Positions 1 through 16,626 of a stretch of DNA of 64,000 bases are shown piece by piece. This DNA is from Pseudotabrizicola formosa (GTDB lineage: Bacteria > Pseudomonadota > Alphaproteobacteria > Rhodobacterales > Rhodobacteraceae): contig NZ_PJOM01000001.1 of NCBI RefSeq assembly GCF_002900965.1, forward strand, positions 1-64,000, in the 5' to 3' direction. How positions within the stretch are numbered: the first letter of the stretch is position 1; every line of letters begins with the position of its first letter. The position numbers and the translations under genes are program-made. A model generated the notes under the pieces. The model saw only the letters and a list, made by a program, of their open reading frames with translations, had not been told where the DNA came from and did not search any database.

Positions 1-353
1 TGAAGTTCGTGGATGATCGCAAGTTTGACTGGCATTACATCGCGCCAGGCAAGCCGACCCAGAATGCCTTCATCGAAAGCTTCAACGGCCGCCTGCGCGA
101 CGAGCTCCTGAACGAGACCCTGTTCCCATCTCTGCACCATGCCCGCGTCACGCTTGCCGCCTGGCGCACCGACTACAACACCGAACGCCCCCACTCGCGA
201 CTCCGCTGGCAGACGCCTGCCGAGTTCGCCCTGACCTTCACCCCGCAACGGGGCCTGACGCTGCGCAATCCACAAAGCTCCGCGCCAGCCCCCGTTGCCC
301 AACCCGCCCAAAGGGGCAAAACTCAAACCCGGAGTCTCGCTCACCATGGATAA
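1..353 (+). CDS. IS3-family transposase OrfB, C-terminal part
   Basis: This is the C-terminal part of a DDE (retroviral-integrase fold) transposase, open at the left window edge; the frame can be read from base 3. The motif [19 protein letters not shown] carries the final catalytic glutamate of the DDE triad, and the later [11 protein letters not shown] is the usual IS3-family C-terminal signature. The catalytic aspartates would lie upstream of the window. The last ~35 residues are a low-complexity Ala/Pro/Gln-rich tail. The protein would cut and join IS ends together with an OrfA partner. Family assignment is firm; whether the element is complete cannot be seen. Confidence 0.85.
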
Positions 354-2001: not shown

Positions 2002-3267
2002 TTAACCACTTTTAAGCTTTGCCTGCTCAAGCGACCAATATTCCATTTCGAACAGCCGCAGAGGATGAAGTGGTTCAAAGCGGCCATAGCGTTCCGCTGC
2101 TGCAACCACACGCACCATCTGCATTGCCAAATCCGCCACGATCTTGGCGTCGCCAGCGGACTTTCCGATACCGAATATACCCAAGCCCGGCACAAGAACC
2201 AGCCGGGGAAGCGGGTCGAGCATGATCTTTGGTTCTGCAGCCTGAGATGCGCCCTGTTCAAAGTATTGATGGTAGCGGGTGGAGAAATCCTTCAAGGCGT
2301 TCCCAATGTCAGCCACCGTAGCATCGCACTGCAACACCAGCGGAAATGGCTTGAGCCGGATCACATGGTCAGGTGTGACGGTACCGCGTTGCAGCGCCTG
2401 CACATTTTGAGGTTGGTCAAGAATGGCGCGGATCAATCGTGATGTGCGAAAATCAAACACCACTTTCGCCCATCCATGATGTGTTTGAGCGATGGCCTCT
2501 TGCAGACTCGTCGTGAATTCTGTCGCCGCATCAGGTGGTGTCTGCTCTGCCCCTGGCTCTGGGTCGAGTGCAGCCTTATGATCTTCAAGGAAACGCTCTG
2601 CCATGGTGGCGAACTCGATCATCCGTGCATAGGATTGCTCTGCTGTGTCACCAAAGGTGAACAGGCCATGATTGACCAGCCAGAGCCCTTCGCAATCTGG
2701 AGAACTGTCAAAAATCCGGGCCGCTTCTATGGAAAGATCATAGCCAGGCATCACATAGTCAACGACGGCAACCCGCTTGCCGTAAATATCAGATCCGATT
2801 TGGGCAGCATCGGGCTGATTGGCCAGCGCCAACACCGCCGAGGCATGGGAGTGATCCACAAACTTGGCAGGCAGGAAGGCGTGGAGCAGGGTTTCTAGCG
2901 ACGGGTTCGGCGCGGTCGGGTCCAGAAGGTTGGCCCGCAGAAATGCGACCATCTCCTCATCCGACATTGGCGGCATGTTGCGCGCAGATTGCAGGGCCTC
3001 AAGGTCAAGGGCAGGCAGACCCGGCCCTTCTATCGTGGCCAGATCCCAACCGCTCCCCTTGACATGAAGCGTTGGGCGACGTGATCCATCCGGCCAGAGT
3101 CGGATCGTTTTGACCGAGGTGTTTCCGCCCCCGTGCAAGACAAGATCAGGGTCGCCCCCGATCAGCCGCGAGGTATACACCCGATCCGCCAGATCAAGAT
3201 CTGCCGGATCGGATCCCGCCGCAGCACGATAGCGGGCCGCGTCTGCATCTTTCCAACGTGACTGCAT
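2002..3267 (-). CDS. Class II aldolase, RhaD/YuxG aldolase half without the dehydrogenase half
   Basis: A 421-residue class II (zinc-dependent) aldolase. Visible features are GGGNTSVK near residue 48, a zinc-site motif DHSHAS near 138, and NHGLFTFG near 200. The sequence follows the N-terminal half of the ~700-residue RhaD/YuxG proteins, in which this aldolase is fused to a short-chain dehydrogenase. Here the protein ends at EYWSLEQAKLKSG, the linker just before that dehydrogenase, and two stops (TAA TAG) follow. It is the last gene of the Lsr-type operon, 9 bp after the LsrG-like gene, and is a candidate to split the processed AI-2 phosphate in place of the missing LsrF thiolase. That role is inference. 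Confidence 0.75.
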   Translation of the reverse strand: MQSRWKDADAARYRAAAGSDPADLDLADRVYTSRLIGGDPDLVLHGGGNTSVKTIRLWPDGSRRPTLHVKGSGWDLATIEGPGLPALDLEALQSARNMPPMSDEEMVAFLRANLLDPTAPNPSLETLLHAFLPAKFVDHSHASAVLALANQPDAAQIGSDIYGKRVAVVDYVMPGYDLSIEAARIFDSSPDCEGLWLVNHGLFTFGDTAEQSYARMIEFATMAERFLEDHKAALDPEPGAEQTPPDAATEFTTSLQEAIAQTHHGWAKVVFDFRTSRLIRAILDQPQNVQALQRGTVTPDHVIRLKPFPLVLQCDATVADIGNALKDFSTRYHQYFEQGASQAAEPKIMLDPLPRLVLVPGLGIFGIGKSAGDAKIVADLAMQMVRVVAAAERYGRFEPLHPLRLFEMEYWSLEQAKLKSG

Positions 3268-3276
3268 GGCTTTTCC

Positions 3277-3591
3277 TTAATGCGCCGATTGAGTGATCAG
3301 GTCGGACATCCGCAGATGATAAAGGTCTTTGCTTCGCGGCCCTTCCATAATGTCGTCCAGCAATGCAACGGTCTGGCGGTAATGGTCCGTGTTGCGGTGG
3401 TCATCCACGGACTCGGCCGAGCGAAATACCTCTACGATGGTGAAGTGCGTCGGCTCTTCCCGATCCTGCAGCACATCAAACCTGAGGTTTCCAGGCTCTT
3501 GTGTTGTCCCATCGTAATTGATCCGGAAGGCGTCGAGAAAGGCGTCGATCTTGTCGGGTTTGACCCGAATATGAACCAATTGCACAAACAT
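3277..3591 (-). CDS. lsrG: LsrG-like phospho-AI-2 isomerase (ABM-domain protein)
   Basis: A 104-residue antibiotic-biosynthesis-monooxygenase-fold protein. It follows E. coli LsrG closely from memory: a VxIxVxxDKxDxF opening, then GNLRFDVLQD, a central HYRQTVALLDD segment and a GPR motif. In enteric bacteria LsrG isomerises phospho-AI-2 (P-HPD) before LsrF cleaves it. The gene starts directly after the stop of the RbsD-like gene and is followed by the class II aldolase, so it is translated as part of the operon. The neighbouring LsrK and LsrR homologues make the assignment much stronger than for an isolated ABM protein. Confidence 0.82.
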   Translation of the reverse strand: MFVQLVHIRVKPDKIDAFLDAFRINYDGTTQEPGNLRFDVLQDREEPTHFTIVEVFRSAESVDDHRNTDHYRQTVALLDDIMEGPRSKDLYHLRMSDLITQSAH

Positions 3592-3593
3592 GT

Positions 3594-4085
3594 TTACTTG
3601 ACCCCCTTCATGCCGTGCTTGACATTCAAGGTATGGCGTTCCGTCCAGCTGTCGGGCACGTCGCCGCCCGTGTTGTCAAACCATTCCTTGACCGGAATGC
3701 CTGAGATCAGCGCGACATTGCCCCAAGGCATCCAGCCGCCGGTGCGCACGATATATTTGGCACCGTGGTAGCCCTCTTCGTGAAACCAGCTGTTTGGGCG
3801 TGTGTCGGGCAGAGCGTCGGGGAAGACGTCATTGGTTGTGCCCCAGGCGTTTGGATTGTTGGCCTTCGCTTCCTCGATCATGTAGAATGCCTCAACCCAC
3901 ATATCTTGGCGGATCGCACTCAGCACAGTGCGCAGATCCGGCACGCCGGGGCAGAGGGCAAGGTCTATGACGCGGTCATCATAGACCATCGGAAAGCCGG
4001 CATCGACGACAAGCATGATGTCATCATGGCCCATTTCAGAAATGGCGCGGCTGAGTTTGACGTTCAGAATACCTTTGCGACGCAT
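3594..4085 (-). CDS. RbsD/FucU-family sugar mutarotase
   Basis: A 163-residue RbsD/FucU-family protein. It has the N-terminal KGILNVKLSRAISEMGHDD with the conserved catalytic-type His20, VVDAG next to it, and RTGGWMPWGNVALISG near the C terminus, all typical of D-ribose pyranase and fucose mutarotase. It is longer than RbsD (~139 residues) because of an insertion around residues 75-105, nearer to FucU-like members. The family interconverts ring forms of sugars. Here it may act on a cyclic form of DPD (AI-2), which also cyclises spontaneously; this is inference from operon position. Start supported by AAAGGACC before the ATG. Confidence 0.8.
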   Translation of the reverse strand: MRRKGILNVKLSRAISEMGHDDIMLVVDAGFPMVYDDRVIDLALCPGVPDLRTVLSAIRQDMWVEAFYMIEEAKANNPNAWGTTNDVFPDALPDTRPNSWFHEEGYHGAKYIVRTGGWMPWGNVALISGIPVKEWFDNTGGDVPDSWTERHTLNVKHGMKGVK

Positions 4086-4112
4086 GGTCGGTCCTTTCGT
4101 GTAGAAGTAGGT

Positions 4113-4838
4113 TCAGGCGTGACCCTGAACGATGAGTGAGATGATTTCGTCCTGAGTGGTGTCCGCCATGTTGCGAATGCCTGCCATCCGGCCCAGATGC
4201 AGAATGGCGACGCGGTCGCATACCTTGCGCACATGGCCAAGGTCATGGCTGACCATGATGATGCCGATGCCCTGATCAGCCAAGTCACGTACGATGGCCA
4301 GCACCTCATCCCGTGCCGAGGGCGACAGGGCCGAGGTCGGCTCGTCGAGAATAATGTAGCGGCTGCCAAAAGCGGTTGTGCGTGCCAGCGCCGAAACTTG
4401 CCGCTGCCCCCCCGACAGATGGCCTGACGGCGTTCGCACATCAAAGGGGCGCACCGAAAAGCTGTTCACAATTTCCTGCGCACGCTTGCGCATGGCACCA
4501 TAGCGCAGAAAGCCAAACCGATTGGTGATTTCGCGCCCCAGAAAGATGTTGTGCACGACCGACATGTCATCACACAGCGCCAGATCCTGATAAAGCATTG
4601 CGATGCCGGCATCCCGGGCCGCACTGGAACTGGTAAAACTGTAGGTTTCGCCGTCTACCATGATTGTACCGGCATCGGGGGCGGTGGCCCCGGCAAGAAT
4701 TTTCATCAGGGTAGATTTGCCCGCCCCGTTGTCACCAAGAACACCCACGACCTCGCCGGCCTCAACGGTCAGATCTATGTCTTCAATCGCCTTGACCGCG
4801 CCGTAGGATTTCGCAATGCCGCTCAGAACCACGCTCAT
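4113..4838 (-). CDS. ABC importer ATPase, single-domain sugar type (Frc/RbsA-half-like)
   Basis: A 241-residue ABC ATPase of the CUT2 (ribose/fructose) class with Walker A GDNGAGKST near residue 35, signature LSGGQRQ near 139, Walker B YIILDEPTSAL near 160 and switch histidine in VSHDL near 196. E. coli LsrA and RbsA are ~500-residue double ATPases; this is a single domain like rhizobial FrcA, so it must work as a homodimer. It lies between the LuxP-like binding protein and the mutarotase gene and would power import through the single permease. A GAGG ribosome site precedes the ATG. Confidence 0.9.
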   Translation of the reverse strand: MSVVLSGIAKSYGAVKAIEDIDLTVEAGEVVGVLGDNGAGKSTLMKILAGATAPDAGTIMVDGETYSFTSSSAARDAGIAMLYQDLALCDDMSVVHNIFLGREITNRFGFLRYGAMRKRAQEIVNSFSVRPFDVRTPSGHLSGGQRQVSALARTTAFGSRYIILDEPTSALSPSARDEVLAIVRDLADQGIGIIMVSHDLGHVRKVCDRVAILHLGRMAGIRNMADTTQDEIISLIVQGHA

Positions 4839-4885
4839 CGACTTGCCTCATTTTTGTGAAAGGCCCACATCTGGGCCGGGAGTGA

Positions 4886-4906
4886 TCCGGGGCCGAGGGC
4901 CCCGGA
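4886..4906 (-). other. Intercistronic hairpin after the LuxP-like gene
   Basis: TCCGGGGCC and GGCCCCGGA form a perfect 9-bp GC-rich stem with a 3-base loop, in the 77-bp gap between the binding-protein stop and the ATPase start. A second small stem (GGCCCA/TGGGCC) follows at about 4862-4877. No T-run follows, so this looks like an mRNA-stabilising or attenuating hairpin rather than a full terminator. Confidence 0.5.
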
Positions 4907-4915
4907 CCTGCAGGA

Positions 4916-6055
4916 TCAGCGGTCGAGCTTGCCAGAATAGCGGAACGCGTAATCGGTCTCGGCGGTGATCTCATCCGGTGTCAGCTTGTAATCCAGCGCC
5001 TTGATCGTTGCGGCCAGAACGACCGGCACCGGCTGTTCTTCTGCATGGGCGCGGATTGCTTCGGCAACGGCAGTGCCCCAGTCGTCATTCACGCGAAACG
5101 CGGTGACCTTCAGGCCGCCATCCATGATGGATTTCAGCTCATCCGCGCCACCGCCCCATCCGTTGATGATCACATCATCCAGAACTCCGCGTTCTGTCGC
5201 GGCCGCCAGCGCTCCAAGCGCGATGGCAGTGCTTGCTGCATGCAGCATCTTGATGTCGGGATGGCGGCTGAGCAGCGCATTGGCCCCGGAAAACGACAGC
5301 TCACGGTCACCATTCGCCTCAAAATGATCGACGATTTCCATGTTGGAGTTATCTTCGACGCATTTCGCAAAATGGTCAGACCGCTGTGAGTCAATCAAGC
5401 CAGGGATGTACCGCAAGAGGGCAATCTTTCCCTCCCCGCCGGTTTCCGCAATCGTCCAGCGGCAGAGTTCCTCGGCACCGATCGTGTGGTCAAATCCGAC
5501 ATGGGTGATCGGTTGATTTTCCGTGCCCAGCAGATCAACAAACGGGTTGACGACGTTCATCACCAGGGTCGGAACCTCTGCGGACAAGCGGGCAATATTG
5601 GACTTTTGTACTTGGTACTCGGTTGGACCAATCACGACGTAGTCAAAATCCCCGGCGAGAATCTGTTCAACCTGCGCGCCCTGCCGGTCATGTTCATCGG
5701 GCTTGAACATGTATTCCACGATTTCGAAGGGGACGCCCATTTCTTCCATCCGTGCCCGGATCGAAAGGTTCAACCGCGCCCAAGCATCCGACGTTTCCAG
5801 ACTTGGAAACATGAGCGCTATTTTCAGCGGTGCCTCATAAGTCTTGTCTGATGGGACAGCCGCGGCCTGCACACGTGCCATGAACTCGGTCATCGCATCG
5901 CGTTCGGCTGGCAGCATTTCGTGTAGTTCGGGCAACAGCAGGTACCCCCGCTCTTTGGCTGCGTCCGGCACCGTTTGTGCAGTCACATGGTGTGCAAGGC
6001 TCGAAATCAGCAGGCCTGACAACAGTAGGCTTTTCAGAGACATCTTTCCGGTCAT
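4916..6055 (-). CDS. luxP: LuxP-like periplasmic autoinducer-2-binding protein
   Basis: A 379-residue exported periplasmic binding protein (signal peptide about residues 5-27). By recall it follows Vibrio LuxP over its whole length: PLKIALMFPSLETSDAW, THVGFDHTIGAEEL, LHAASTAIALGAL, IINGWGGGADEL, FRVNDDWGTAVAEAI and a C-terminal AFRYS. Counted from 6055, the AI-2/borate-contact positions of LuxP match as Ser89 (S79), Trp92 (W82), Asn167 (N159), Arg225 (R215), Ser275-Thr276, Trp300 (W289) and Arg321 (R310); Gln77 is replaced by Glu87. LuxP normally partners the sensor LuxQ, but this copy sits in an ABC-import operon with LsrG and near LsrK and LsrR homologues. Start chosen at 6055 because GGGAGG precedes it by seven bases. 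Confidence 0.78.
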   Translation of the reverse strand: MTGKMSLKSLLLSGLLISSLAHHVTAQTVPDAAKERGYLLLPELHEMLPAERDAMTEFMARVQAAAVPSDKTYEAPLKIALMFPSLETSDAWARLNLSIRARMEEMGVPFEIVEYMFKPDEHDRQGAQVEQILAGDFDYVVIGPTEYQVQKSNIARLSAEVPTLVMNVVNPFVDLLGTENQPITHVGFDHTIGAEELCRWTIAETGGEGKIALLRYIPGLIDSQRSDHFAKCVEDNSNMEIVDHFEANGDRELSFSGANALLSRHPDIKMLHAASTAIALGALAAATERGVLDDVIINGWGGGADELKSIMDGGLKVTAFRVNDDWGTAVAEAIRAHAEEQPVPVVLAATIKALDYKLTPDEITAETDYAFRYSGKLDR

Positions 6056-6107
6056 GGTATTTCCTCCCATTTGTGGTTCAGTGCATCCGTTTTATTTGGT
6101 CCTACGC

Positions 6108-7139
6108 TCATTCTTCGGCGCGGGTGTTTCTGCGGGAATAGAGCGCGATGGTGATCAGGATCACCGCACCGGCGGCGACGTGCTGCCAGAACGCTTCAAA
6201 GCCCAGCATTACGACGGCGTTGGTGATGGTGGCCAAAAGCCATGCCCCAAGTAACGTACCGATGATGGACCCTCGCCCGCCGAACAGGTGGGTGCCTCCG
6301 ACAATCACGGCCGCAACTGTGTTCAGCAGGATGGTTACGGCTCCCGACGCCACGACTGCATCCAGCCGCCCGGTCAGGATGATGCCGCCAATCGCCGCGA
6401 TAATGCCCATGAAAACATAGACCCCTACGCGGTAGCCGGTGACGCTGATGCCAAGGCGCTTGGCCGCTGTCGGGTTGCCGCCAACTGCATGGAGTCGCAT
6501 GCCGATACGGTGATAGGCAAAGATGCAATGCGCCACCACGACAAGCGTCAGCGCAATGATCAGAGGCATCGGGACGCCTATTACACGCCCCCGACCCAGG
6601 AAGGTGATGACCTCGGGAAACCCGAAGAACACGCCGCCGCCGGCGTAGACCAGCGCCAGACCGCGAAACACGAGTTCAGACGACAACGTCACAATGAAAT
6701 CGGGCATCCTCAGCCGGGTGATGAGCAGCCCATTAAACAGCCCGCACAAGGCGCCAACTGTCAGGCCAACAAGGACCGATACCCAAAGTGGCAGACCGAA
6801 ATCCTTAAGCGCTGCGGCGAAGGCCACACTCGACAGCGTCAGAATGGCACCAATCGACAGATCAATCCCACGTGCGGTGATCACGGCCGTCATACCTATT
6901 CCCAAGAGCATGATCAGCGACGCGTCCAGTGCGATCGCCCGCAAGTTCCCCACTGCAAAGAAGTTCGGCGCAGCCAACACCATGCCGACCGCAATGATCG
7001 CCAGCATGACAAGAGGGGCAGCAAGCGGAACCTGGGTCGGGCCGAGAAGCGGTGGCATTCGCGCGCGCCATCCCGTTTCCCCCAATAGTGCAGCGCGGCG
7101 TTCATCGGCCGATGACATGTTGTCGGTCGCGGGCGTCAT
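6108..7139 (-). CDS. ABC importer permease, CUT2 (ribose/fructose) class
   Basis: A 343-residue membrane protein with about 8-10 hydrophobic segments and the class signature (GIDLSIGAILTL, GLFNGLLITRLRMPDFIVTL, AVGGNPTAAKRLGISV). It is the only permease in the operon, whereas the E. coli Lsr system uses two (LsrC and LsrD), so it probably forms a homodimer as in the Frc fructose importer. A longer form from a TTG at 7160 is possible, but AGGAGA stands just before the ATG at 7139. It is the first gene after the operator/promoter at 7154-7207. Confidence 0.88.
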   Translation of the reverse strand: MTPATDNMSSADERRAALLGETGWRARMPPLLGPTQVPLAAPLVMLAIIAVGMVLAAPNFFAVGNLRAIALDASLIMLLGIGMTAVITARGIDLSIGAILTLSSVAFAAALKDFGLPLWVSVLVGLTVGALCGLFNGLLITRLRMPDFIVTLSSELVFRGLALVYAGGGVFFGFPEVITFLGRGRVIGVPMPLIIALTLVVVAHCIFAYHRIGMRLHAVGGNPTAAKRLGISVTGYRVGVYVFMGIIAAIGGIILTGRLDAVVASGAVTILLNTVAAVIVGGTHLFGGRGSIIGTLLGAWLLATITNAVVMLGFEAFWQHVAAGAVILITIALYSRRNTRAEE

Positions 7140-7153
7140 CTCGTCTCCTGCAG

Positions 7154-7207
7154 TGTTCAAATGTTTGTATAACGATCATATGAACAGATCTGCACATTTT
7201 CTGTCAA
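7154..7207 (-). promoter_or_regulatory. Promoter and LsrR-type operator of the AI-2 operon
   Basis: Read on the minus strand, TTGACA (7207-7202) is followed by 17 bp and TTCATA (7184-7179) as -35 and -10. The -10 lies inside TGTTCATATG (7186-7177), which forms an inverted repeat with TGTTCAAATG (7154-7163 on the plus strand), 9 of 10 positions matching, 13 bp apart. TGTTCA/TGAACA half-sites are typical for SorC/DeoR-class sugar regulators. The same TTGAC-N16-TGTTCATATG block stands before the LVIVD/lsrK transcript at 8236-8266. The expected transcript start is about 30 bp before the permease ATG. Confidence 0.75.
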
Positions 7208-7227
7208 GCGGAACTTGAAAAGAAAAC

Positions 7228-7248
7228 GGCCAGCTCCGAAAGCTGGCC
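7228..7248 (-). terminator. Rho-independent terminator of the lsrR-like gene
   Basis: On the minus strand GGCCAGCT, a TTCGG loop and AGCTGGCC form a perfect 8-bp stem followed by GTTTTCTTTT. It lies 20 bp after the regulator stop codon and just before the operon promoter, so it separates the regulator transcript from the transport operon. Confidence 0.85.
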
Positions 7249-7268
7249 CGAGGGATGAAAATCAGAGG

Positions 7269-8192
7269 TTAGTGCAGCAGCGCAGGGGCTGTTTCTTCAT
7301 CCGTGATGAAGATGTTGATAAATCCCCCCCGCAGGGCTGCGCGAATGGCCTGTACCTTTTCTGAGCCAGCTGCAGCAGCAATCACCTTTGGGCCCCTGCG
7401 CAAATCGGATAACGGTACCCCAACCACTCTGCGGTGGAGTGGAAGGTCAACCTCTGCTCCATCCGAGTCGATGAATCGGCATAGGACGTCTCCTACCACA
7501 CCGCGTCGACGCATCGATTCCACTTCGTTGGGATGCACATAGCCATGCCTGATGACTGTCGCTTCTGGCGTCAGCCCGCCGATGCCCACCAGGGCAAAAT
7601 TGGCTTGCATCGACATGTCCAGAATGCTCCGCACACTGGTTTCGTTGCGCAGCGCGGACGCAATTTCCCCGCTTTCAACAATGAGAGGGGCGGGCACGAG
7701 GTAGAACTTTTGCGCACCACCGACGATTCGAAGTCCATCTGCATAGGCCTGGACTCCACCGGTCAGGCTCACCAGATCCACGCGACGATCAGTGGCCAGG
7801 TGGCCCAATCGATGAATTGCTGCCCCCACCATTTCGCCCCAGCCCACCGCCAGCAGGCTGTTTTCCGGGAGATGTCGCATCAGATATTGCGCCGCCGCCT
7901 GTCCCAACCTTTCGCTGACCCGCACACCATCCAGTCGCGGAATCACACGAACCTCGGCGATATCGAACTGCTCCTCAATGAGGCGTTCAAGGTTCAGGCA
8001 GCCCTGCAAGGCAGAGTTTATCCGCAATTCTAGCAGGCCTGTCCGCCGTCCCATCTCCAGCAGGCGTGACACCTTGATGCGCGGAATCCCAAGGCGCTCA
8101 CCGATTTCCTGCTGCGTCTGGCCGTCATTGTAATAATACCAGGCTGCCCGCGCCATCAGGGCTTCATCATCATCTATCAAGGGGTGATCCAA
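7269..8192 (-). CDS. lsrR: SorC-family transcriptional regulator, LsrR-like
   Basis: A 307-residue SorC/DeoR-type regulator. The N-terminal part (residues ~10-55: ARAAWYYYNDGQTQQEIGER, then GIPRIKVSRLLE) is the helix-turn-helix and closely resembles E. coli LsrR; the remaining ~250 residues are a sugar-phosphate sensor domain of the NagB-like fold. LsrR represses lsr genes until phospho-AI-2 binds. The predicted start is a TTG with GAGAGG eight bases upstream; the next ATG (residue 13) would cut into the start of the domain. It is transcribed in the same direction as the transport operon but ends at its own terminator, and its upstream region overlaps the second operator, which would allow autoregulation. 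Confidence 0.85.
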   Translation of the reverse strand: MDHPLIDDDEALMARAAWYYYNDGQTQQEIGERLGIPRIKVSRLLEMGRRTGLLELRINSALQGCLNLERLIEEQFDIAEVRVIPRLDGVRVSERLGQAAAQYLMRHLPENSLLAVGWGEMVGAAIHRLGHLATDRRVDLVSLTGGVQAYADGLRIVGGAQKFYLVPAPLIVESGEIASALRNETSVRSILDMSMQANFALVGIGGLTPEATVIRHGYVHPNEVESMRRRGVVGDVLCRFIDSDGAEVDLPLHRRVVGVPLSDLRRGPKVIAAAAGSEKVQAIRAALRGGFINIFITDEETAPALLH

Positions 8193-8235
8193 GCAGTTGC
8201 CTCTCGACCTTATCAGTGCGTCACGTGAAAAAACC

Positions 8236-8270
8236 TTGACCCGACCATCGGGCCACTGTTCATATGTTCA
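8236..8270 (+). promoter_or_regulatory. Promoter and LsrR-type operator of the LVIVD-lsrK transcript
   Basis: TTGACC (8236-8241), 17 bp, TTCATA (8259-8264) form the promoter; TGTTCATATG (8257-8266) overlaps the -10, as at the divergent AI-2 operon promoter. The spacing from TTGAC to TGTTCATATG is 16 bp in both promoters. The second half-site expected at 8280-8289 is degenerate (6 of 10). Because the -10 covers 8264, the ATG at that position cannot be the start of the next gene. Confidence 0.72.
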
Positions 8271-8362
8271 GAATAGAAACTTTTGGTCGCATCGCAAGCG
8301 AACAAGCGCAGGCTGTCACCGGGTGCGGCTGCGAACTGAACCATGCAAGTATAGAGGGTGAC

Positions 8363-9622
8363 ATGTCAGGGCCAAACGGGAAAACAGCACAATACACGCG
8401 GAATATGCGCCTGATCGGACATTGCGATCAAGGAGGTCGTGGCGACGGCACGCAGATCATGGTCGCCAATGGCTATGCCTATGTGGCGCATATTTTCTCG
8501 CAAGGGTTTAGTGTGCTTGATGTCCGCGACCCCGCAAAGCCCCGGACGGTCCTTCATGTGCCCGCTCCTGCCAATACCTGGACCCTGCATCTTCAGCAAG
8601 CCGACGGCCTTTTGTTGGTAGTCCATGCCCAAGATCAGTTCCGCCGCGCCGACATTCGTCACGAGTCTGATTATTACAAGGCCGACACCCGCGATACGGG
8701 CAAGTCTGTCGCGACCGAGCAGCGCGATTATTCGGCGGGGATGGCGGTGTATGACCTTTCTGACCCGGCAGCCCCCAGACAGATCGGCTTTATGCCGGTC
8801 AATGGCATTGGCCTGCATCGCATCTGGTACGTTGGTGGACGCTGGGCTTACGCATCCGCCCAGATCGAAGGGTTCAGCGACTTCATTCTGGTCACCATCG
8901 ACATGTCCAATCCAGCACGACCTGAAATTATTGGACAATTCTGGTTGCCAGGTATGAACATCGCAGCCGGTGAAGTGCCGGACTGGCCGCTCGAACGCGG
9001 TCGCTACAGCCTGCACCACCCGATTGTGCACGATGACGTCGCCTATTGCGGCTGGCGTGACGGCTGCCTTGTGATTGTCGACGTGGCCGACAAGGCTGAG
9101 CCGAAGCTGATGGCACATCGCAACTGGGCTCCGCCCTTTGGCGGCGGAACCCACAATTGCCTGCCTTTGCCGGACCGTGATCTTTTGGTGGTGGTTGACG
9201 AAGCTGTACTGGACAATGGCGAAGATGGTGACAAGCCGATCTGGCTGTTTGATATCCGCGATAAGACCAATCCTGTCAGCATATCCACACTGCCTAAGCC
9301 GTCTGACCGAAATTATCTGGCGGTTGGCGGTCACTTTGGGCCGCATAACGTGCATGAAAACCGCCCCGGCAGCTTTGTCAGCTCTACTCTGATCTTCTCA
9401 ACCTGGCAAAATGCAGGGCTGCGGGTCCACGACATTGGCAATGCCTATGCCCCGCAAGAGGTTGGTGCCTTTGTTCCAGAGGCTCCGGCCCGTCACGTCG
9501 ACCCGCGACCAGGGCGACCGCTCGTCATCAACACCACCGATGTTTTCGTCGACAAAGCGGGATTGATTTACTTCACCGACTTTAGTGGGGGGGGGCTGCA
9601 CATTGCAGAGTTCAATGGCTGA
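8363..9622 (+). CDS. LVIVD-repeat beta-propeller protein in the AI-2 locus
   Basis: A 419-residue protein built of LVIVD-type beta-propeller repeats: GFSVLDVRDPAKP (~residue 48), GMAVYDLSDPAAP (~127), VTIDMSNPARP (~176), CLVIVDVADKAEP (~234) and WLFDIRDKTNP (~294). Conserved His-rich spots (THNCLP, GPHNVHEN) could bind metal. No signal peptide is seen, so it is probably cytoplasmic. An upstream in-frame ATG at 8264 lies inside the promoter -10; the ATG at 8363 follows GAGGG and is preferred. It shares its transcript with lsrK 12 bp downstream, yet classic lsr operons have no such gene. Function unknown. Confidence 0.75.
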   Translation: MSGPNGKTAQYTRNMRLIGHCDQGGRGDGTQIMVANGYAYVAHIFSQGFSVLDVRDPAKPRTVLHVPAPANTWTLHLQQADGLLLVVHAQDQFRRADIRHESDYYKADTRDTGKSVATEQRDYSAGMAVYDLSDPAAPRQIGFMPVNGIGLHRIWYVGGRWAYASAQIEGFSDFILVTIDMSNPARPEIIGQFWLPGMNIAAGEVPDWPLERGRYSLHHPIVHDDVAYCGWRDGCLVIVDVADKAEPKLMAHRNWAPPFGGGTHNCLPLPDRDLLVVVDEAVLDNGEDGDKPIWLFDIRDKTNPVSISTLPKPSDRNYLAVGGHFGPHNVHENRPGSFVSSTLIFSTWQNAGLRVHDIGNAYAPQEVGAFVPEAPARHVDPRPGRPLVINTTDVFVDKAGLIYFTDFSGGGLHIAEFNG

Positions 9623-9634
9623 GGGGAAGAATCA

Positions 9635-11200
9635 ATGACCCGGTACTTTTTGGCAATCGACGCGGGCACCGGGAGTGGCCGTGCAGTCATCTTTGATCAA
9701 AGTGGCAATCAGGTGGGGATGGGCCAGCAAGAGTGGACCCATATCAGCGAACCGGGCGTGCAGGGCTCGATGGCGTTTGACTGCCAGGCCAACTGGCGCA
9801 TTCTGTCGGATTGCATCCGCGCCTCCGTTGCAGATGCCGGAATTTCTGCAGACCAGATTGCAGCTGTCAGTTCCACCAGCATGCGCGAAGGCATAGTCCT
9901 TTACGACCGCGATGGACGGGAACTTTGGGCATGCGCCAATGTCGATGGACGCGCGGTCCAAGAAGTAATCGATCTGAAGCGGCAGGATGACGGCATGGAA
10001 GCTGCCTTTTATGCCGTGAGTGGCCAGACCTTCGCGCTCGGAGCCTGGCCCCGGTTGGAGTGGCTGCGCCGCAATCGACCTGCGCTTTTGGACAAGGCCG
10101 CCAAGGTCTCTATGATCAACGATTGGGTTCTGGCCCGACTGTGTGGTGAAATTGTCACCGAACCCTCAAACGGTGGCACAAGCGGCCTGATCGACCTCTC
10201 CACCCGGCAATGGTCGCCCGAGTTGATTGCGCGGACTGGCCTTGCGTCTGATCTGTTCCCCGCCATGGTTGAGCCCGGCACAGCGGTAGGCCGCGTCTCG
10301 TACAAGGCGGCGGCTGAAACCGGCCTCACTGTCGGCACAGCCGTCATCTGTGGCGGCGGCGACGTACAACTTGGAACCTTGGGTCTTGGTCTGGTCGATG
10401 AGGGGGCGGCTGCCGTCCTGGGCGGCACGTTCTGGCAGCAGGTTATCAACATCGGTCAAGGGCGCACGGATTCGACCATGCGCGTTCGGATCAACCCGCA
10501 TGTGCAGAACAATCTGAACCAAGCTGAGTGCATTTCATTCTTCGTTGGCCTGACGATGCGCTGGTTCCGGGATACCTTTTGTCAGGATGAAAAGGCGCAT
10601 GCCGCCGCTCATGGCCTGGATGCTTATACCGTGCTGGAACAGATGGCCGCGCAGGTGCCAGCCGGCGCGAACGGAATCATCCCGATTTTTTCCGACGCTA
10701 TGGATTTCGGACGCTGGTATCATGCGGCCCCGTCCTTCTTGAACATGTCGATCGACCCCGGCCACACCACCAAAGCCAGCTTGTTCCGTGCCTTGCAGGA
10801 AAATGCTGCTATCGTGTCGGCTGTGAATTTAGACCGCGTGTTGGACTTTGCCGGTGTCAGCATTGATCGTCCGGTCGTCTTTGCGGGCGGGGCATCAAAA
10901 GGGGCGCTCTGGTCGCAGATCTTGGCAGATGTCCTGGGACGCCCCGTCGCCATTCCCAAAGTGCGCGAGGCCACGGCACTTGGGTGCGCCGCCGCTGCGG
11001 CTTGTGGGGTTGGGCAATTTGCGACGCTAGCAGAAGCTGGACGGAGTTTTGCCGCAACCGATCGGATTGTCGAGCCAAACACCGCCAACGCCTCTGTGTA
11101 TGCACGCGCACGCACCGATTGGATGCAGGCTTATGCCGCACAAAAAGCTCTGGTCGATCAAGGTGTGACGACGTCCCTGTGGAAGGCCCCTGGAACTTGA
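9635..11200 (+). CDS. lsrK: Autoinducer-2 kinase LsrK
   Basis: A 521-residue FGGY-family kinase that follows E. coli LsrK nearly end to end from memory: LAIDAGTGSGRAVIFDQSGN, SMREGIVLYDRDGRELWACA followed by NVD, PSNGGTSGLIDL, VICGGGDVQLGTLGLG, VLGGTFWQQVINI, FFVGLTMRWFRDTFC, SDAMDFGRWYHAAPSF, FAGGASKGALWSQILADV and the C-terminal TTSLWKAPGT. LsrK phosphorylates DPD (AI-2) after uptake, trapping it and creating the inducer of LsrR. The length equals the family norm. GAGGGGA precedes the ATG. It is transcribed with the LVIVD gene, divergent from lsrR and the transport operon. No LuxS gene is in the window. Confidence 0.92.
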   Translation: MTRYFLAIDAGTGSGRAVIFDQSGNQVGMGQQEWTHISEPGVQGSMAFDCQANWRILSDCIRASVADAGISADQIAAVSSTSMREGIVLYDRDGRELWACANVDGRAVQEVIDLKRQDDGMEAAFYAVSGQTFALGAWPRLEWLRRNRPALLDKAAKVSMINDWVLARLCGEIVTEPSNGGTSGLIDLSTRQWSPELIARTGLASDLFPAMVEPGTAVGRVSYKAAAETGLTVGTAVICGGGDVQLGTLGLGLVDEGAAAVLGGTFWQQVINIGQGRTDSTMRVRINPHVQNNLNQAECISFFVGLTMRWFRDTFCQDEKAHAAAHGLDAYTVLEQMAAQVPAGANGIIPIFSDAMDFGRWYHAAPSFLNMSIDPGHTTKASLFRALQENAAIVSAVNLDRVLDFAGVSIDRPVVFAGGASKGALWSQILADVLGRPVAIPKVREATALGCAAAAACGVGQFATLAEAGRSFAATDRIVEPNTANASVYARARTDWMQAYAAQKALVDQGVTTSLWKAPGT

Positions 11201-11204
11201 TGCG

Positions 11205-11650
11205 CTATCCGGTCTTCGACGTGACACGCAAGATGGGGTGGCTGTTGTTGCGTTGTCTCATTGCCAACAAAGCGCCGCAAGCCTTTCTTAAGGCGCGGAC
11301 CGCAAAGATCAGCCGGTACTCCGCAATGAAAGCATACCTCACCGGGAGTCCCTGGCGAAGCATGGGATCGCCTTTTTGAGGATGCTCCCATGCGCCGGGA
11401 AAACAGTCCGCCGGACTGTTTTCTTGTCCCGCTCAACTCCGTCACCCTGGCAAGGTCGCGCTTGAGGCGGCGGATCTCGTCCGCTTGGGCATCGACCTCC
11501 TTGATCACCTTGGCCGATCGCAAAATCTACTTTTGCCAAGTGTGGATCGACTTGGTGCTAATCCCCAACCGCTGCGCCATCTGTCGATCCGGCGCGAAAC
11601 TTTCATGCTGGAAAACGTTGCAGACTCGCCTGGTTGCAGTCGGATGACGT
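11205..11650 (-). mobile_element. Decayed IS3-family element (OrfA end and OrfB start)
   Basis: This 460-bp stretch holds no intact gene. On the minus strand it reads the end of an IS3 OrfA (DRQMAQRLGISTKSIHTWQK, a stop, then AQADEIRRLKRDLARVTE, then in another frame ILKKAIPCFARDSR), followed by an OrfB beginning (YAFIAEYRLIFAVRA) that breaks off after ~15 residues. At least one stop, one frameshift and a 42-bp insertion are visible, so the element is dead. It lies right after lsrK and borders the AI-2 locus. Confidence 0.75.
11384..11425. repeat. 42-bp palindromic element inserted in frame in the IS3 remnant
   Basis: GAAAACAGTCCG (11399-11410) and CGGACTGTTTTC (11412-11423) are perfect 12-bp inverted arms with one base between. 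Relative to the usual OrfA sequence 'ERDILKKA', exactly 42 bp separate the ERD codons from the ILKKA codons, in the same frame. It therefore looks like a small palindromic element inserted in a coding sequence without shifting its frame. Confidence 0.5.
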
Positions 11651-13131: not shown

Positions 13132-14613
13132 TCAGGCATAGGGCATCAGCGGCACGGGCGAGGAGCCGGACCAGTTCACATAGACGGATTTCTTGCGCAG
13201 ATAGGATTCAAGTCCGTGAATGCCGTCATCGCCACCGGGACCCGAATTCCGGTATCCGGTGTGATAGCCCTGCAGTGCCTCTGGCCCGATGCGGTTCACA
13301 TAGATCTCGCCAAAGCGGATGTCGGCCACCGCCTGCATGATGCGTCGGTAATCTTGGGTGAACAGATAGGCGGAGAGGCCATAGCGACTGTCGTTTGCCA
13401 CGGCCATCGCCTCGTCAAAGCCAGAGACTTTCATCACCGGAACAACGGGGCCAAAGATTTCGTCCTGCATGATCGCCATATCGGCAGTCACCCCACCCAG
13501 CACTGTCGGTGTCATCCAGTAACCCCCGGCCACCGGCGGTGTGTCGGGCCGGCCGCCCAGCAGCAGCGGTTCGGCACCGGATTTCAGCGCAGCGGCCAGA
13601 ATGGCCTCCACCTTCTCCAGTTCCGGTTGCGAGACTTTGGGGCCAAGATCTGTCGTCTCCAGCATCGGGTCTCCCAGCCGCAGCGCCTTGGTGGCCTGTA
13701 CGAAGCGGGTGACAAAGGCATCGTAGACCTTTTCATGCACCAGCATCCGTTCGTTGCAGATGCAGACCTGCCCGCAGTTCATGAAGCGCGAAGTGACGGC
13801 CGAGGCCACGGCAAGATCGAGATCGGCATCTTCCATCACGATCAGCGGGGCCTTGCCGCCCAGTTCCAGCGAGACGGGCACAAGGTTCGGGGCAGCAGCG
13901 ACCATGATGCGCTTGCCGGTTGGCACAGAGCCGGTCATGGTCACAAGATCAACGTCCGAGTGCGTGGTCAGGGCCGCGCCCACTGTGCCGCCCGCGCCGG
14001 TGACAATGTTCACCACCCCTGCAGGCAGGCCCGCCTGTTCGAACAATCGCGCCATGTACAGCGCCGAAAGCGGCGTTTCTTCATGGGGCTTCAGAACAAT
14101 CGTGTTCCCGGCAATCAGGGCAGGGGCCACTTTGCGACTGACCAGTGCTGCGGGATAATTCCAAGGAATGATGCCGACGACGACACCCACCGGCACCCGC
14201 TGAATCCAGATCTGTTCGCCGGGCGCGTCCGAGGGCAGGATCTCCCCTTGAATGCGGCGGGCAAATTCTGCAAAATAGGTGAAGAACTCGGCAGCGCCCC
14301 CCACTTCACCCCGCGCCTCGGTGATGGGTTTGCCTTGTTCGCGCACGACCAGCTGCGCCAAAGGCTCGGCGTGTTCTCGGATCAGCCCCGCGATCTTGTG
14401 CATAAAGACCCCGCGTTGCAGCGGTGACAGCCGCGCCCAGGCGGGTTGTGCGGCGCGAGCTGCATCAATGGCCTGCAGGGCCTGTGCCGCGCTGGCCTCG
14501 GGGGCATGGGCAAATACCTCTCCGGTGGCGGGGTTGATGACGGGGCGGGTGCCTTCGGCCCCCTTATGCCAGTGCCCGCCAATCCACATGCTGCTGTGAT
14601 CCTCGCTTTGCAT
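13132..14613 (-). CDS. Aldehyde dehydrogenase, AldA (lactaldehyde/glycolaldehyde) type
   Basis: A 493-residue NAD-dependent aldehyde dehydrogenase. It has IPWNYPAALVSRK near residue 155, the general-base motif LELGGKAPLIV near 257 and the catalytic cysteine in NCGQVCICNERM near 290. The C-terminal block FGEIYVNRIGPEALQGYHTG resembles E. coli AldA (lactaldehyde/glycolaldehyde dehydrogenase). It lies 20 bp after the PdxA2-type gene in one operon. The start at 14613 is set by GGGAGGAGACAGG directly before the ATG; an upstream in-frame start adds only five residues. Likely role: oxidising a small hydroxyaldehyde from acid-sugar breakdown. Confidence 0.82.
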   Translation of the reverse strand: MQSEDHSSMWIGGHWHKGAEGTRPVINPATGEVFAHAPEASAAQALQAIDAARAAQPAWARLSPLQRGVFMHKIAGLIREHAEPLAQLVVREQGKPITEARGEVGGAAEFFTYFAEFARRIQGEILPSDAPGEQIWIQRVPVGVVVGIIPWNYPAALVSRKVAPALIAGNTIVLKPHEETPLSALYMARLFEQAGLPAGVVNIVTGAGGTVGAALTTHSDVDLVTMTGSVPTGKRIMVAAAPNLVPVSLELGGKAPLIVMEDADLDLAVASAVTSRFMNCGQVCICNERMLVHEKVYDAFVTRFVQATKALRLGDPMLETTDLGPKVSQPELEKVEAILAAALKSGAEPLLLGGRPDTPPVAGGYWMTPTVLGGVTADMAIMQDEIFGPVVPVMKVSGFDEAMAVANDSRYGLSAYLFTQDYRRIMQAVADIRFGEIYVNRIGPEALQGYHTGYRNSGPGGDDGIHGLESYLRKKSVYVNWSGSSPVPLMPYA

Positions 14614-14633
14614 CCTGTCTCCTCCCAAAGATC

Positions 14634-15677
14634 TTAGTCCGTGATGGCGGTATCCGCCTTGCTGCTTACCAGGGCCAGCGCGTAGTCGATGGCCTCGATC
14701 AGGCTGGTCGCTTCGGCAATGCCCTGACCTGCAATGTCGAAGGCGGTGCCGTGATCGACAGAGGTGCGGATGATCGGCAGGCCAAGGGTGACATTCACCC
14801 CACTGAGCCCGACCCAGCGGCCAGTTGCCGGATCAACAGTAAAGCCAAGCAGCTTGACCGGAATATGCCCCTGATCGTGATACATCGCGACCACGGCATC
14901 AAAGGCTCCGCCGCGCATTTTCACAAAAACCGTATCGCCGGGCACCGGGCCGGTGATGTTCAACCCTTCGCTGCGCAACTGGGCCACCAAAGGCTCGGTC
15001 ACGTCGATGTCCTGTCGCCCGAAGATGCCGCCTTCGCCTGCGTGGGGGTTCAGCGCGGCTATGGCAATGCGGGGGGTGGCAATGCCCAGCCGGCACAGGG
15101 CGCTGTGGGTCAGGGTCACAACATGCCGGATGCGTGCGGCGGTGGCGCGCGTGGGCACATCTTCCAGCGCACAATGTGTTGTGACATGGGACACGCGAAA
15201 CGCCCCATGGGCCAGCATCATCACGCTGCCTTTTGCGCCAGTCAGATCAGCCAGCAGTTCGGTATGGCCCGCATAGGCATGGCCTGCCAGATGCAGCGCC
15301 TCTTTGTTCAGGGGTCCGGTCACGATGGCATCGGCGGCCCCCGTCATGGCAAGCGTGGTTGCCTGCACCACTGCACGATAGGCCTGATCGCCCGCATCGG
15401 CGGATAGGGTGCCGGGCAGGATGGGACGCGCAGGCGGGACTGTCGGCAAGATCGCCGCGCCGGACAGGCTGCGCACGTCATCCTGCCCGATGACGGGCGG
15501 GCAGGGCAGGCCAAGGCTTGCCGCGCTGCGCTGCAACGTTGCCGCGTCGCCAATCAGCACAAGGGCCAGGTCCTGTGCAGACAGCCTGGCCATCAGGGCA
15601 TGGCACGCCTTCAGCGCGATTTCGGGGCCGATCCCGGCAGGGTCACCGATCGAGATGGCCAGAACAGATTTTGGCAT
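14634..15677 (-). CDS. pdxA2: PdxA-family dehydrogenase, PdxA2 (threonate/erythronate 4-phosphate) type
   Basis: A 347-residue PdxA-family oxidoreductase. Typical motifs are SIGDPAGIGPEIALK at the N terminus, YAGHTELLADLTG (metal His), ALNPHAGEGGIFGRQ, and MYHDQGHIPVKLLGF. Housekeeping PdxA oxidises 4-phosphohydroxy-L-threonine for vitamin B6. The PdxA2 subgroup oxidises D-threonate or D-erythronate 4-phosphate to dihydroxyacetone phosphate, paired with a DUF1537 kinase. The nearby DUF1537 kinase (16635-17678) and a divergent DeoR regulator support the catabolic reading. Distinguishing the two by sequence alone is not certain. Confidence 0.82.
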   Translation of the reverse strand: MPKSVLAISIGDPAGIGPEIALKACHALMARLSAQDLALVLIGDAATLQRSAASLGLPCPPVIGQDDVRSLSGAAILPTVPPARPILPGTLSADAGDQAYRAVVQATTLAMTGAADAIVTGPLNKEALHLAGHAYAGHTELLADLTGAKGSVMMLAHGAFRVSHVTTHCALEDVPTRATAARIRHVVTLTHSALCRLGIATPRIAIAALNPHAGEGGIFGRQDIDVTEPLVAQLRSEGLNITGPVPGDTVFVKMRGGAFDAVVAMYHDQGHIPVKLLGFTVDPATGRWVGLSGVNVTLGLPIIRTSVDHGTAFDIAGQGIAEATSLIEAIDYALALVSSKADTAITD

Positions 15678-15846
15678 CTTTTGACGCGGCCTTTCCGAAG
15701 CTTGCTCCGATTCGTGTTATATTTTGATCTTTTATGAAACATCTTGAACTATTTTGGTAGAACATTGCAACGCTGTGAGAGCAGGCTGGAACATTTTCGC
15801 GGTTTTGTGCCAGTATGCTGACAAGTCAGCGATCAACAGGGCGCAT

Positions 15847-16626
15847 ATGCTACCAGCAAAAAGACGAGCCCGGATTCTGGAGGTGCTGGGAGCCGAACAG
15901 ATGGTGTCCCTGAAAGACCTGTCGGAAGCCTTGGGCATTTCGATATCCACGGTGCGCCGCGATGTCGATTATCTGGATGAGGCAGGCTATTTGTCCCGCA
16001 CCCATGGCGGCGCGATTTCAACCGCGCGGGCATCCACGACGTTTGAGCCTGAAGCTGCCATCGCATCGGCCATCGAAAGTGCGGCAAAGGCTGCCATCGG
16101 TGCCGTTGCGGCGCAGCTGATTCAGCCGGGGCAATCGGTGTTGTTTGACAGCGGAACCACGACCGCAGCGGCGGCGAGGGCCGCAGCCAAGCTGAGCATT
16201 CCCTTCACCGCGATGACCAATGATGTGATGATCGCATCTTGCCTGTCACAGAATGCGCTGGTGCAGACCAGCGTCACAGGCGGGACCATGCGCAGTGGCA
16301 CCACCACATTGCTGGGGGCGGATGCGGTGAATTCTGTCGCGCGGCTGCGGGCCGATATCGCCTTTGTGGGCACCCATGCGATCACGCCAGAGGTGCTGTC
16401 GGATACGTCGCTGGAACTGGCAGACCTCAAGCGCCGGTTTATGGCAGCGGCAGACCGGGTGATCCTGCTGGTGGACAGCAGCAAGTTTTTCAACCGGGCG
16501 TTCTGCGCCTTTGGCGAAACCTCTGCGGTGGATCTGGTGCTGACCGACAGCCGGATCAGCGCGGATGCGACGGCCGCCCTCAAAGACCGGGGTATTGACC
16601 TGCGGATGGTGGATATCGCGCCATAA
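15847..16626 (+). CDS. DeoR-family transcriptional regulator
   Basis: A 259-residue DeoR/GlpR-family repressor. Residues ~5-55 are the helix-turn-helix (RRARILEVLGAEQMVSLKDL, then STVRRDVDYLDEAG and THGGAI); the remainder is the DeoR sugar-phosphate sensor domain with LFDSGTTTAAAARAA and DSSKFFNRAF. It is divergent from pdxA2-aldA across a 169-bp gap, so it most likely regulates them in response to a phosphorylated acid sugar. The ATG at 15847 (AGGG upstream) gives the normal family length; a longer frame from 15754 would add an unrelated leader. Confidence 0.85.
   Translation: MLPAKRRARILEVLGAEQMVSLKDLSEALGISISTVRRDVDYLDEAGYLSRTHGGAISTARASTTFEPEAAIASAIESAAKAAIGAVAAQLIQPGQSVLFDSGTTTAAAARAAAKLSIPFTAMTNDVMIASCLSQNALVQTSVTGGTMRSGTTTLLGADAVNSVARLRADIAFVGTHAITPEVLSDTSLELADLKRRFMAAADRVILLVDSSKFFNRAFCAFGETSAVDLVLTDSRISADATAALKDRGIDLRMVDIAP

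Follow-up and report, generated by a model that had tools for sequence, protein, structure and literature searches.

Positions 2002-11200 of a window from Pseudotabrizicola formosa (the whole 64,000-nucleotide stretch analyzed here) hold an lsr-type autoinducer-2 (AI-2) locus in which a LuxP-family binding protein, accompanied by its own permease and a single-domain ATPase, takes the place of the transporter LsrABCD. The nine genes form two divergent blocks flanking the regulator: the minus-strand block encodes an LsrR-like regulator, the permease, the LuxP-family binding protein, the single-domain ATPase, an RbsD-type protein, an LsrG-like protein, and a class II aldolase, and the plus-strand block encodes an LVIVD propeller protein and LsrK. 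Judged from sequence, this is likely a locus for the import and disposal of AI-2 whose Lsr transporter was replaced by an ATP-binding cassette (ABC) importer of the LuxP superfamily, with AI-2 as the likely cargo. An earlier reading of this DNA from its letters and open reading frames (ORFs) (the sequence-only reading) had proposed such a hybrid; all the genes it named were found where it had placed them, and four products (the mutarotase, the class II aldolase, the LVIVD protein, and the single-domain ATPase) had no part in its reasoning.

The core Lsr genes on which that reading was built were recovered here. LsrK scored 806 bits against an NCBIfam cut-off of 528 (NF008187), whereas the LsrR-like protein (294.8 bits, cut-off 486) and the LsrG-like protein (104.4 bits, cut-off 135) fell below theirs, LsrR and LsrG still being the best-matching families. 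The counterparts in the Sinorhizobium meliloti lsr locus also fell below these cut-offs (315.5 and 110 bits, respectively), so the shortfall alone is no argument against the assignment. The suggested likeness to the S. meliloti system was likewise upheld: kinase, regulator, LsrG, and aldolase were 50-58% identical between the two loci, whereas the transporter genes reached only 29-36%, and no LsrB match was found at the window locus.

The LuxP-LsrK hybrid is real and recurrent. Together with eight close relatives (69-94% identity; six loci from scans of named genomes, one from plasmids, and one from genome G457), the window makes up a set of nine hybrid loci, all of which contained LsrK, LsrR, LsrG, RbsD, the permease, and the ATPase. 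None had an LsrB match, nor an LsrA, LsrC, or LsrD match above 36%; the aldolase was present in eight, the LVIVD protein in seven, and LsrF in one. That one (L009, from a Rhodospirillales metagenome-assembled genome [MAG]) runs permease, LuxP-type protein, ATPase, RbsD, LsrG, a ribulose-phosphate-3-epimerase-like gene, and LsrF, with LsrR and LsrK divergent; its LsrF (462.8 bits, cut-off 297) and LsrK (828.5 bits, cut-off 528) passed, and the epimerase-like gene scored below its cut-off. Epimerase homology is described for Salmonella lsrE in the portion of the source available (PMC2728841). A near-full lsr set with the transporter exchanged, L009 is the strongest evidence for a LuxP-type importer serving AI-2, from one MAG only. 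Because LsrK, LsrR, LsrG, and the mutarotase are constant company, joined once by LsrF and the epimerase-like gene, AI-2 is the likeliest cargo.

LsrK scored above its cut-off in 7 of 295 family genomes, two of them (G000 and G457) with the LuxP-type importer and five (L071-L075) with LsrB and LsrA/C/D, and in 1 of 385 genomes of the class sample, the window's own. The same model passed in none of 14 control genomes, Escherichia coli included, which makes that control uninformative, although LsrK proteins scanned directly do pass. Among 220 genomes of the order, the window itself was the only source of a window-type binding protein (E 1e-80).

The closest solved relatives of the binding protein were four LuxP sequences (E 7.1e-47 to 1.2e-46), followed by a ribose-binding protein (E 2e-11); its identity to Vibrio LuxP was 28-30%. 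A 67-protein tree recovered the window-type proteins (9 rows) as monophyletic (support 100/99) and placed them with the LuxPQ type and the Ruegeria pomeroyi type in one 53-row group apart from RbsB, TorT, and LsrB (99/98, with long branches). Both results agree with the earlier claim that the protein follows LuxP and not LsrB, and the tree places it with LuxP rather than with the ribose- and TorT-like proteins named beforehand as the opposing outcome. As for its description as a LuxP-type receptor, membership in the superfamily stood, but the protein belongs to a third clade and is not LuxP itself. When fifteen outgroup or long-branch rows were removed, the resulting 52-row tree gave the window type as sister to LuxPQ with support of 87/61, and approximately unbiased (AU) tests rejected neither of two alternatives (p 0.31 and 0.12); this sisterhood was accordingly dropped as proof of function. 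An AlphaFold2 model (mean predicted local distance difference test [pLDDT] 64.6) had LuxP entries as all eight of its best fold matches (top 1jx6) and was used for fold only, its ligand-site geometry being set aside (residues 91-94, pLDDT <50). In assembling these sets, ORFs below 70 bits were dropped, as were rows whose final 250 residues were the same as those of a row already included, and overlong ORFs were trimmed to the last 385 residues (binding protein) or 530 residues (LsrK); the 67-protein tree left out L014, of the same genus as L013 and L015, and two fragments of L080 (a LuxP gene interrupted by an internal stop). A one-event origin of the hybrid is not claimed from the LsrK tree (19 rows), where the labels split with one change at a branch support of 27/44.

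The transporter is a probable member of a putative LsrR regulon. Searching the nine loci with the pattern TGAACANNTGAACA at up to two mismatches gave 22 sites within or touching the 3,992 bp of gaps around lsrR, whereas the remaining 146,097 bp held 4; in 300 single-base shuffles of the gaps, the mean was 0.28 sites and the maximum 3. In eight of the nine loci, operator-like sites lay in the gaps around lsrR ahead of the transporter. S. meliloti and E. coli likewise had two-mismatch sites in their regulatory gaps, and no site matching the pattern was seen anywhere in L074, one of the canonical lsr loci of the family.

These genes suggest how the locus may work. The LuxP-family protein would capture a cyclic form of AI-2 in the periplasm, and the gene content points to import by one permease and one single-domain ATPase, each acting as a dimer. 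Inside the cell, the RbsD-type protein may speed ring opening or anomer exchange, and LsrK, by its family function, would phosphorylate the open form. Phospho-AI-2 would then release LsrR from the TGAACA-type operators predicted in the gaps around lsrR and be isomerized by LsrG; the chemistry given for LsrG and LsrF follows general background and NCBIfam family names. The class II aldolase may cleave the product in place of LsrF. Across 17 lsr loci, 12 had the aldolase, 4 had LsrF, none had both, and 1 had neither, a count that includes several nearly identical loci and one, L074, truncated by a contig end, so that the events are not independent. Since the two were never found together, the aldolase may replace LsrF as a possible stand-in. 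LsrF (NF006081) had no match in the window's genome; its model matched in five of 14 control genomes and exceeded its cut-off in none, E. coli included, an uninformative control even though LsrF proteins scanned directly do pass. No LsrF match was found in the stretch read of the S. meliloti lsr locus, for which the mutual exclusion also proposes an enzyme for the last step.

Which form of AI-2 would be bound was considered from eight residues that, following the sequence-only reading and general knowledge, we take to be the LuxP ligand residues (Q77, S79, W82, N159, R215, T266, W289, and R310). At these positions, window-type proteins carried E, S, W, N, R, T, W, and R (9/9), Vibrio-group LuxP kept all eight (9/9), the 17 R. 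pomeroyi-type ABC proteins had D, S, W (15/17), A or G, R, T, W, and R, and LsrB (9 rows) shared none. The eight residue pairs listed earlier, including Q77 to Glu87, were correct in their numbering from the second Met (6055), five lower than when counted from the ORF start at 6070. Seven or eight matches out of eight at about 29% identity to LuxP have a binomial probability near 0.001. Six of the eight residues are common to most of the wider family, so they mark the LuxP superfamily and not the ligand. Asn159 groups the window type with LuxP, and position 77 separates the two; Asn159 is not unique to AI-2 loci, as it is also present, with Asp at 77, in the ABC-linked L020 and L021.

The proposal that the counterparts of R215 and R310 form a borate-side signature was not supported: both arginines occur in 17/17 R. 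pomeroyi-type ABC binding proteins, and as a family-wide feature they were rejected as such a signature. Vibrio LuxP as a borate-AI-2 receptor has all eight ligand residues, the window type seven, and its Glu at 77 would place a negative charge where the borated ligand would itself be an anion. We lean toward binding of the unborated form or no strict preference. An importer that prefers borated AI-2 as Vibrio LuxP does, making the locus a borate-AI-2 scavenging route of saline habitats, is conceivable but somewhat improbable. It would fit the retention of seven of the eight residues in 9/9 window-type proteins, including the Asn159 absent from all 17 R. pomeroyi-type proteins, and named hosts such as Stappia, Hoeflea, and Roseicitreum antarcticum, the last from intertidal sediment; the family-wide arginines and the Glu at 77 in 9/9 speak against it, and the AlphaFold2 model is not good enough around residues 91-94 of the site for its geometry to be judged. 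The borated form thus stays a tentative option to which the residues cited for it lend no support.

Several observations weigh against AI-2 import and disposal. The nine hybrid loci are related and not independent; the operator pattern was built on the window and its close relatives and afterwards tallied in them, and one of the nine loci (L051) had no operator-like site in the pattern scan; the window LsrR and LsrG lie below NCBI cut-offs, as does the S. meliloti pair; Gln77 is replaced by Glu in every window-type protein; and a genome of the same genus (G517) had no binding-protein match at E 1e-20 and no LsrK match at E 1e-100, which makes the locus an optional trait. In addition, a deoxy-sugar pathway would also accommodate RbsD and a RhaD-type aldolase, and the cargo might accordingly be a related deoxy-pentulose or other sugar, toward which LsrK, LsrG, and LsrR would have drifted. 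Both proteins are characteristic of sugar pathways, a solved LuxP structure contains 1-deoxy-xylulofuranose borate (entry 4yr7), and no AI-2 genes stand beside the transporter's relatives in the stretches read. We nevertheless regard a sugar cargo as unlikely: the S. meliloti lsr locus has a 52% identical aldolase, one hybrid locus has LsrF itself, and LsrK exceeds its equivalog cut-off.

A chance association, with the LuxP-like protein belonging to an unrelated sugar importer that happens to lie inside an lsr locus, would be in keeping with the nearest transporter kin (permease 41-44% identical), which occur in loci with no LsrK-grade kinase in the stretches read. The window and its eight relatives keep the same company, none with an LsrB match or an LsrA/C/D match above 36%, and operator-like sites precede the transporter in 8/9, which makes such an association very improbable. 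AI-2 import and disposal remains the preferred account. A bolder version would have the AI-2 route rebuilt at both ends, with an importer able to take borate-AI-2 in place of LsrABCD, a mutarotase freeing the open form, and a metal-dependent aldolase in place of the LsrF thiolase, and would make LuxP-fold receptors importer parts before LuxQ recruited one as a sensor; we consider it doubtful.

Features of the AI-2 locus in the window, with coordinates, strand, and supporting matches
Feature	Position	Strand	Evidence
Class II (metal) aldolase, RhaD-like, without dehydrogenase half	2002..3267	-	Pfam Aldolase_II 2.2e-20; 52% to S. meliloti lsr-locus aldolase
LsrG-like phospho-AI-2 isomerase (ABM fold)	3277..3591	-	Top PDB match LsrG E 3.9e-23; 47% E. 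coli LsrG; 51% S. meliloti; below NCBIfam cut-off
RbsD/FucU-type mutarotase/pyranase	3594..4085	-	Pfam RbsD_FucU 8.2e-26; 31% to E. coli RbsD; GH, DAG, R-G-P-N positions conserved
ABC ATPase, one nucleotide-binding domain	4113..4838	-	Pfam ABC_tran; 36% / 29% to two halves of S. meliloti LsrA; 37-42% to R. pomeroyi-type ATPases (longer loci)
LuxP-family periplasmic binding protein, signal peptide judged by eye	4916..6070 (alternative start 6055)	-	LuxP E 7e-47; own clade 100/99; AlphaFold2 fold match LuxP 1jx6
ABC permease, one gene	6108..7160	-	Pfam BPD_transp_2; 29-32% to LsrC/LsrD; 41-44% to R. pomeroyi-type permeases
Two putative LsrR operator sites	7154-7167 (touches permease start), 7173-7186	.	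Pattern scan, two mismatches each; ahead of transporter genes
LsrR-like SorC-family regulator	7269..8192	-	Top PDB match LsrR E 1e-71; 54% to S. meliloti LsrR; below NCBIfam cut-off
Putative LsrR operator TGAACATATGAACA between lsrR and divergent genes	8257..8270	-	Pattern scan
LVIVD beta-propeller protein (orthologs begin near 8363)	8264..9622	+	Pfam LVIVD; in 7/9 hybrid loci; fold match 5hrm E 9.9e-16 (model mean pLDDT 70)
LsrK, autoinducer-2 kinase	9635..11200	+	NF008187 806 bits; top PDB match LsrK E 2.8e-183; 58% to S. meliloti LsrK

A search of the window's genome for luxS gave no match (control matched in 5 of 14 genomes, including E. coli), in agreement with the earlier statement that none was seen, and the search for luxQ proposed alongside it was likewise negative for the LuxQ sensor domain PF09308 (model matched in 5 of 8 chosen genomes). 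The host would therefore scavenge or listen to the AI-2 of its neighbours. The cluster was probably acquired, because its G+C content is lower (57.9% versus 62.3% for the rest of the window), a genome of the same genus has no match at the thresholds used, and an IS3-type integrase fragment (rve_3) precedes it at 9-353 (+). An OrfA-like coil follows the cluster at 11379-11523 (-), seen by eye only, Pfam having found nothing, and in Roseicitreum (L035) an integrase also lies just beyond the aldolase (13351-13710). A separate neighbouring cluster at 13132-16626 of the window encodes an aldehyde dehydrogenase, a PdxA-family dehydrogenase, and a DeoR-type regulator.

Relatives of the LVIVD protein at about 60% identity are carried by Erwinia, Rahnella, Rhizobium, and Leisingera plasmids (L122-L125), away from lsr genes. 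The Erwinia and Rahnella contexts were of one cluster kind and those of Leisingera and Rhizobium of two others, with lsr genes annotated in none, and the binding protein adjoining the Erwinia relative was not LuxP-like. Fold and profile searches gave a weak pointer to haloalkylphosphorus hydrolase, and no function was concluded from the neighbours (4 of 65 plasmid records, 58-63% identity).

More distant LuxP-like proteins (up to 41% identity) mostly occurred either in the company of ABC permease and ATPase genes or next to an ORF resembling LuxQ at 22-34%. Among 19 loci with LuxP-family proteins 30-40% identical to that of the window (L052-L070), the sole FGGY-kinase matches were at 25% and 29%, and the stretches of 13-16 kb read around 15 of the 17 R. 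pomeroyi-type proteins contained no LsrR, LsrG, or LsrK-grade match, the one FGGY kinase there being at 25%. Neither ABC genes nor a LuxQ-like ORF was found beside the LuxP-like proteins of L104, L105, and L109, and L037, L042, L107, and L112 were further exceptions: these last four, two Vibrio replicons listed as plasmids and two genomes, also containing LuxP, encoded R. pomeroyi-type LuxP-like proteins (56-61%) adjacent to a different binding protein and to an ORF roughly 830 residues long, with no ABC genes in the stretch read. In L067-L070, L101-L103, L110, and L111, proteins 39-45% identical to LuxP stood beside ORFs 22-34% like LuxQ; such pairs reach Alphaproteobacteria and other Pseudomonadota, wider than the picture in the available portions of older surveys. 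L076 (G654), perhaps a further variant, had a more distant LsrK (477.5 bits, below the cut-off); its aldolase matched the S. meliloti one at 54% identity, and the binding protein of its transporter was only 25% like LsrB.

The following published context comes from those portions of the sources that were available. LuxP homologs outside Vibrio have been described in Oceanospirillales and a deltaproteobacterium, some of them adjacent to PAS-domain regulators; the same source reports lsrB in Sinorhizobium and Rhodobacter (PMC2561040). A canonical Lsr set has been reported in Ruegeria mobilis (PMC6333666), LuxPQ and Lsr are treated as separate systems (PMC3386761, PMC3420918), and a class of highly modified Lsr systems has been described (PMC3420918). 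S. meliloti responds to AI-2 (PMC3386761, PMC6333666). We found no description of a LuxP-LsrK hybrid in the open-licence literature searched, within which the locus is an apparently undescribed variant of known lsr-type AI-2 systems with a LuxP-type importer. The two kinds of AI-2 receptor have so far been treated separately, with LuxP assigned to sensing in Vibrio and LsrB to import, and this locus joins the LuxP family to the import-and-digest pathway. If the proposed function is correct, the two known kinds of AI-2 receptor swap jobs, here in a host with no match for an AI-2 synthesis gene. The locus offers a direct test of how the LuxP AI-2 site changes under a transport role and of its need for borate. 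Because its importer is of LuxP type within an lsr locus, surveys for lsrB or luxPQ alone would miss such loci.

Set against known systems, the locus combines parts of several. Vibrio LuxP belongs to the same binding-protein superfamily, with 7 of 8 ligand residues in common, but partners LuxQ, whereas the window protein is partnered by an ABC importer and a kinase pathway in a genome without a LuxQ match. The R. pomeroyi-type LuxP-like ABC importers, the nearest transporter kin found, share the permease, the single-domain ATPase, and the LuxP-superfamily protein, yet have Ala or Gly at Asn159 and Asp at Gln77 in 17/17, and their surroundings, as far as read, contained no LsrK-grade kinase, LsrG, or LsrR. 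The E. coli K-12 lsr operon, whose host produces its own AI-2, encodes LsrK, LsrR, and LsrG at 54%, 42%, and 47% identity to those of the window and, unlike the window locus, carries LsrACDB and LsrF. The LsrA ATPase has two nucleotide-binding domains where that of the window has one, and LsrC and LsrD are two permease genes where the window has a single gene. The S. meliloti lsr locus (L078) and the canonical lsr loci of the same family (L071-L075) share LsrK, LsrR, and LsrG with the window, and the class II aldolase is common to the window, S. meliloti, L073, and L074. S. meliloti is further like the window in its divergent gene arrangement and in having a two-mismatch operator-like site within the regulatory gap; its transporter, as in L071-L075, is LsrA/C/D/B, whereas the window has a LuxP-type importer with RbsD and, as in most hybrid loci, the LVIVD protein.

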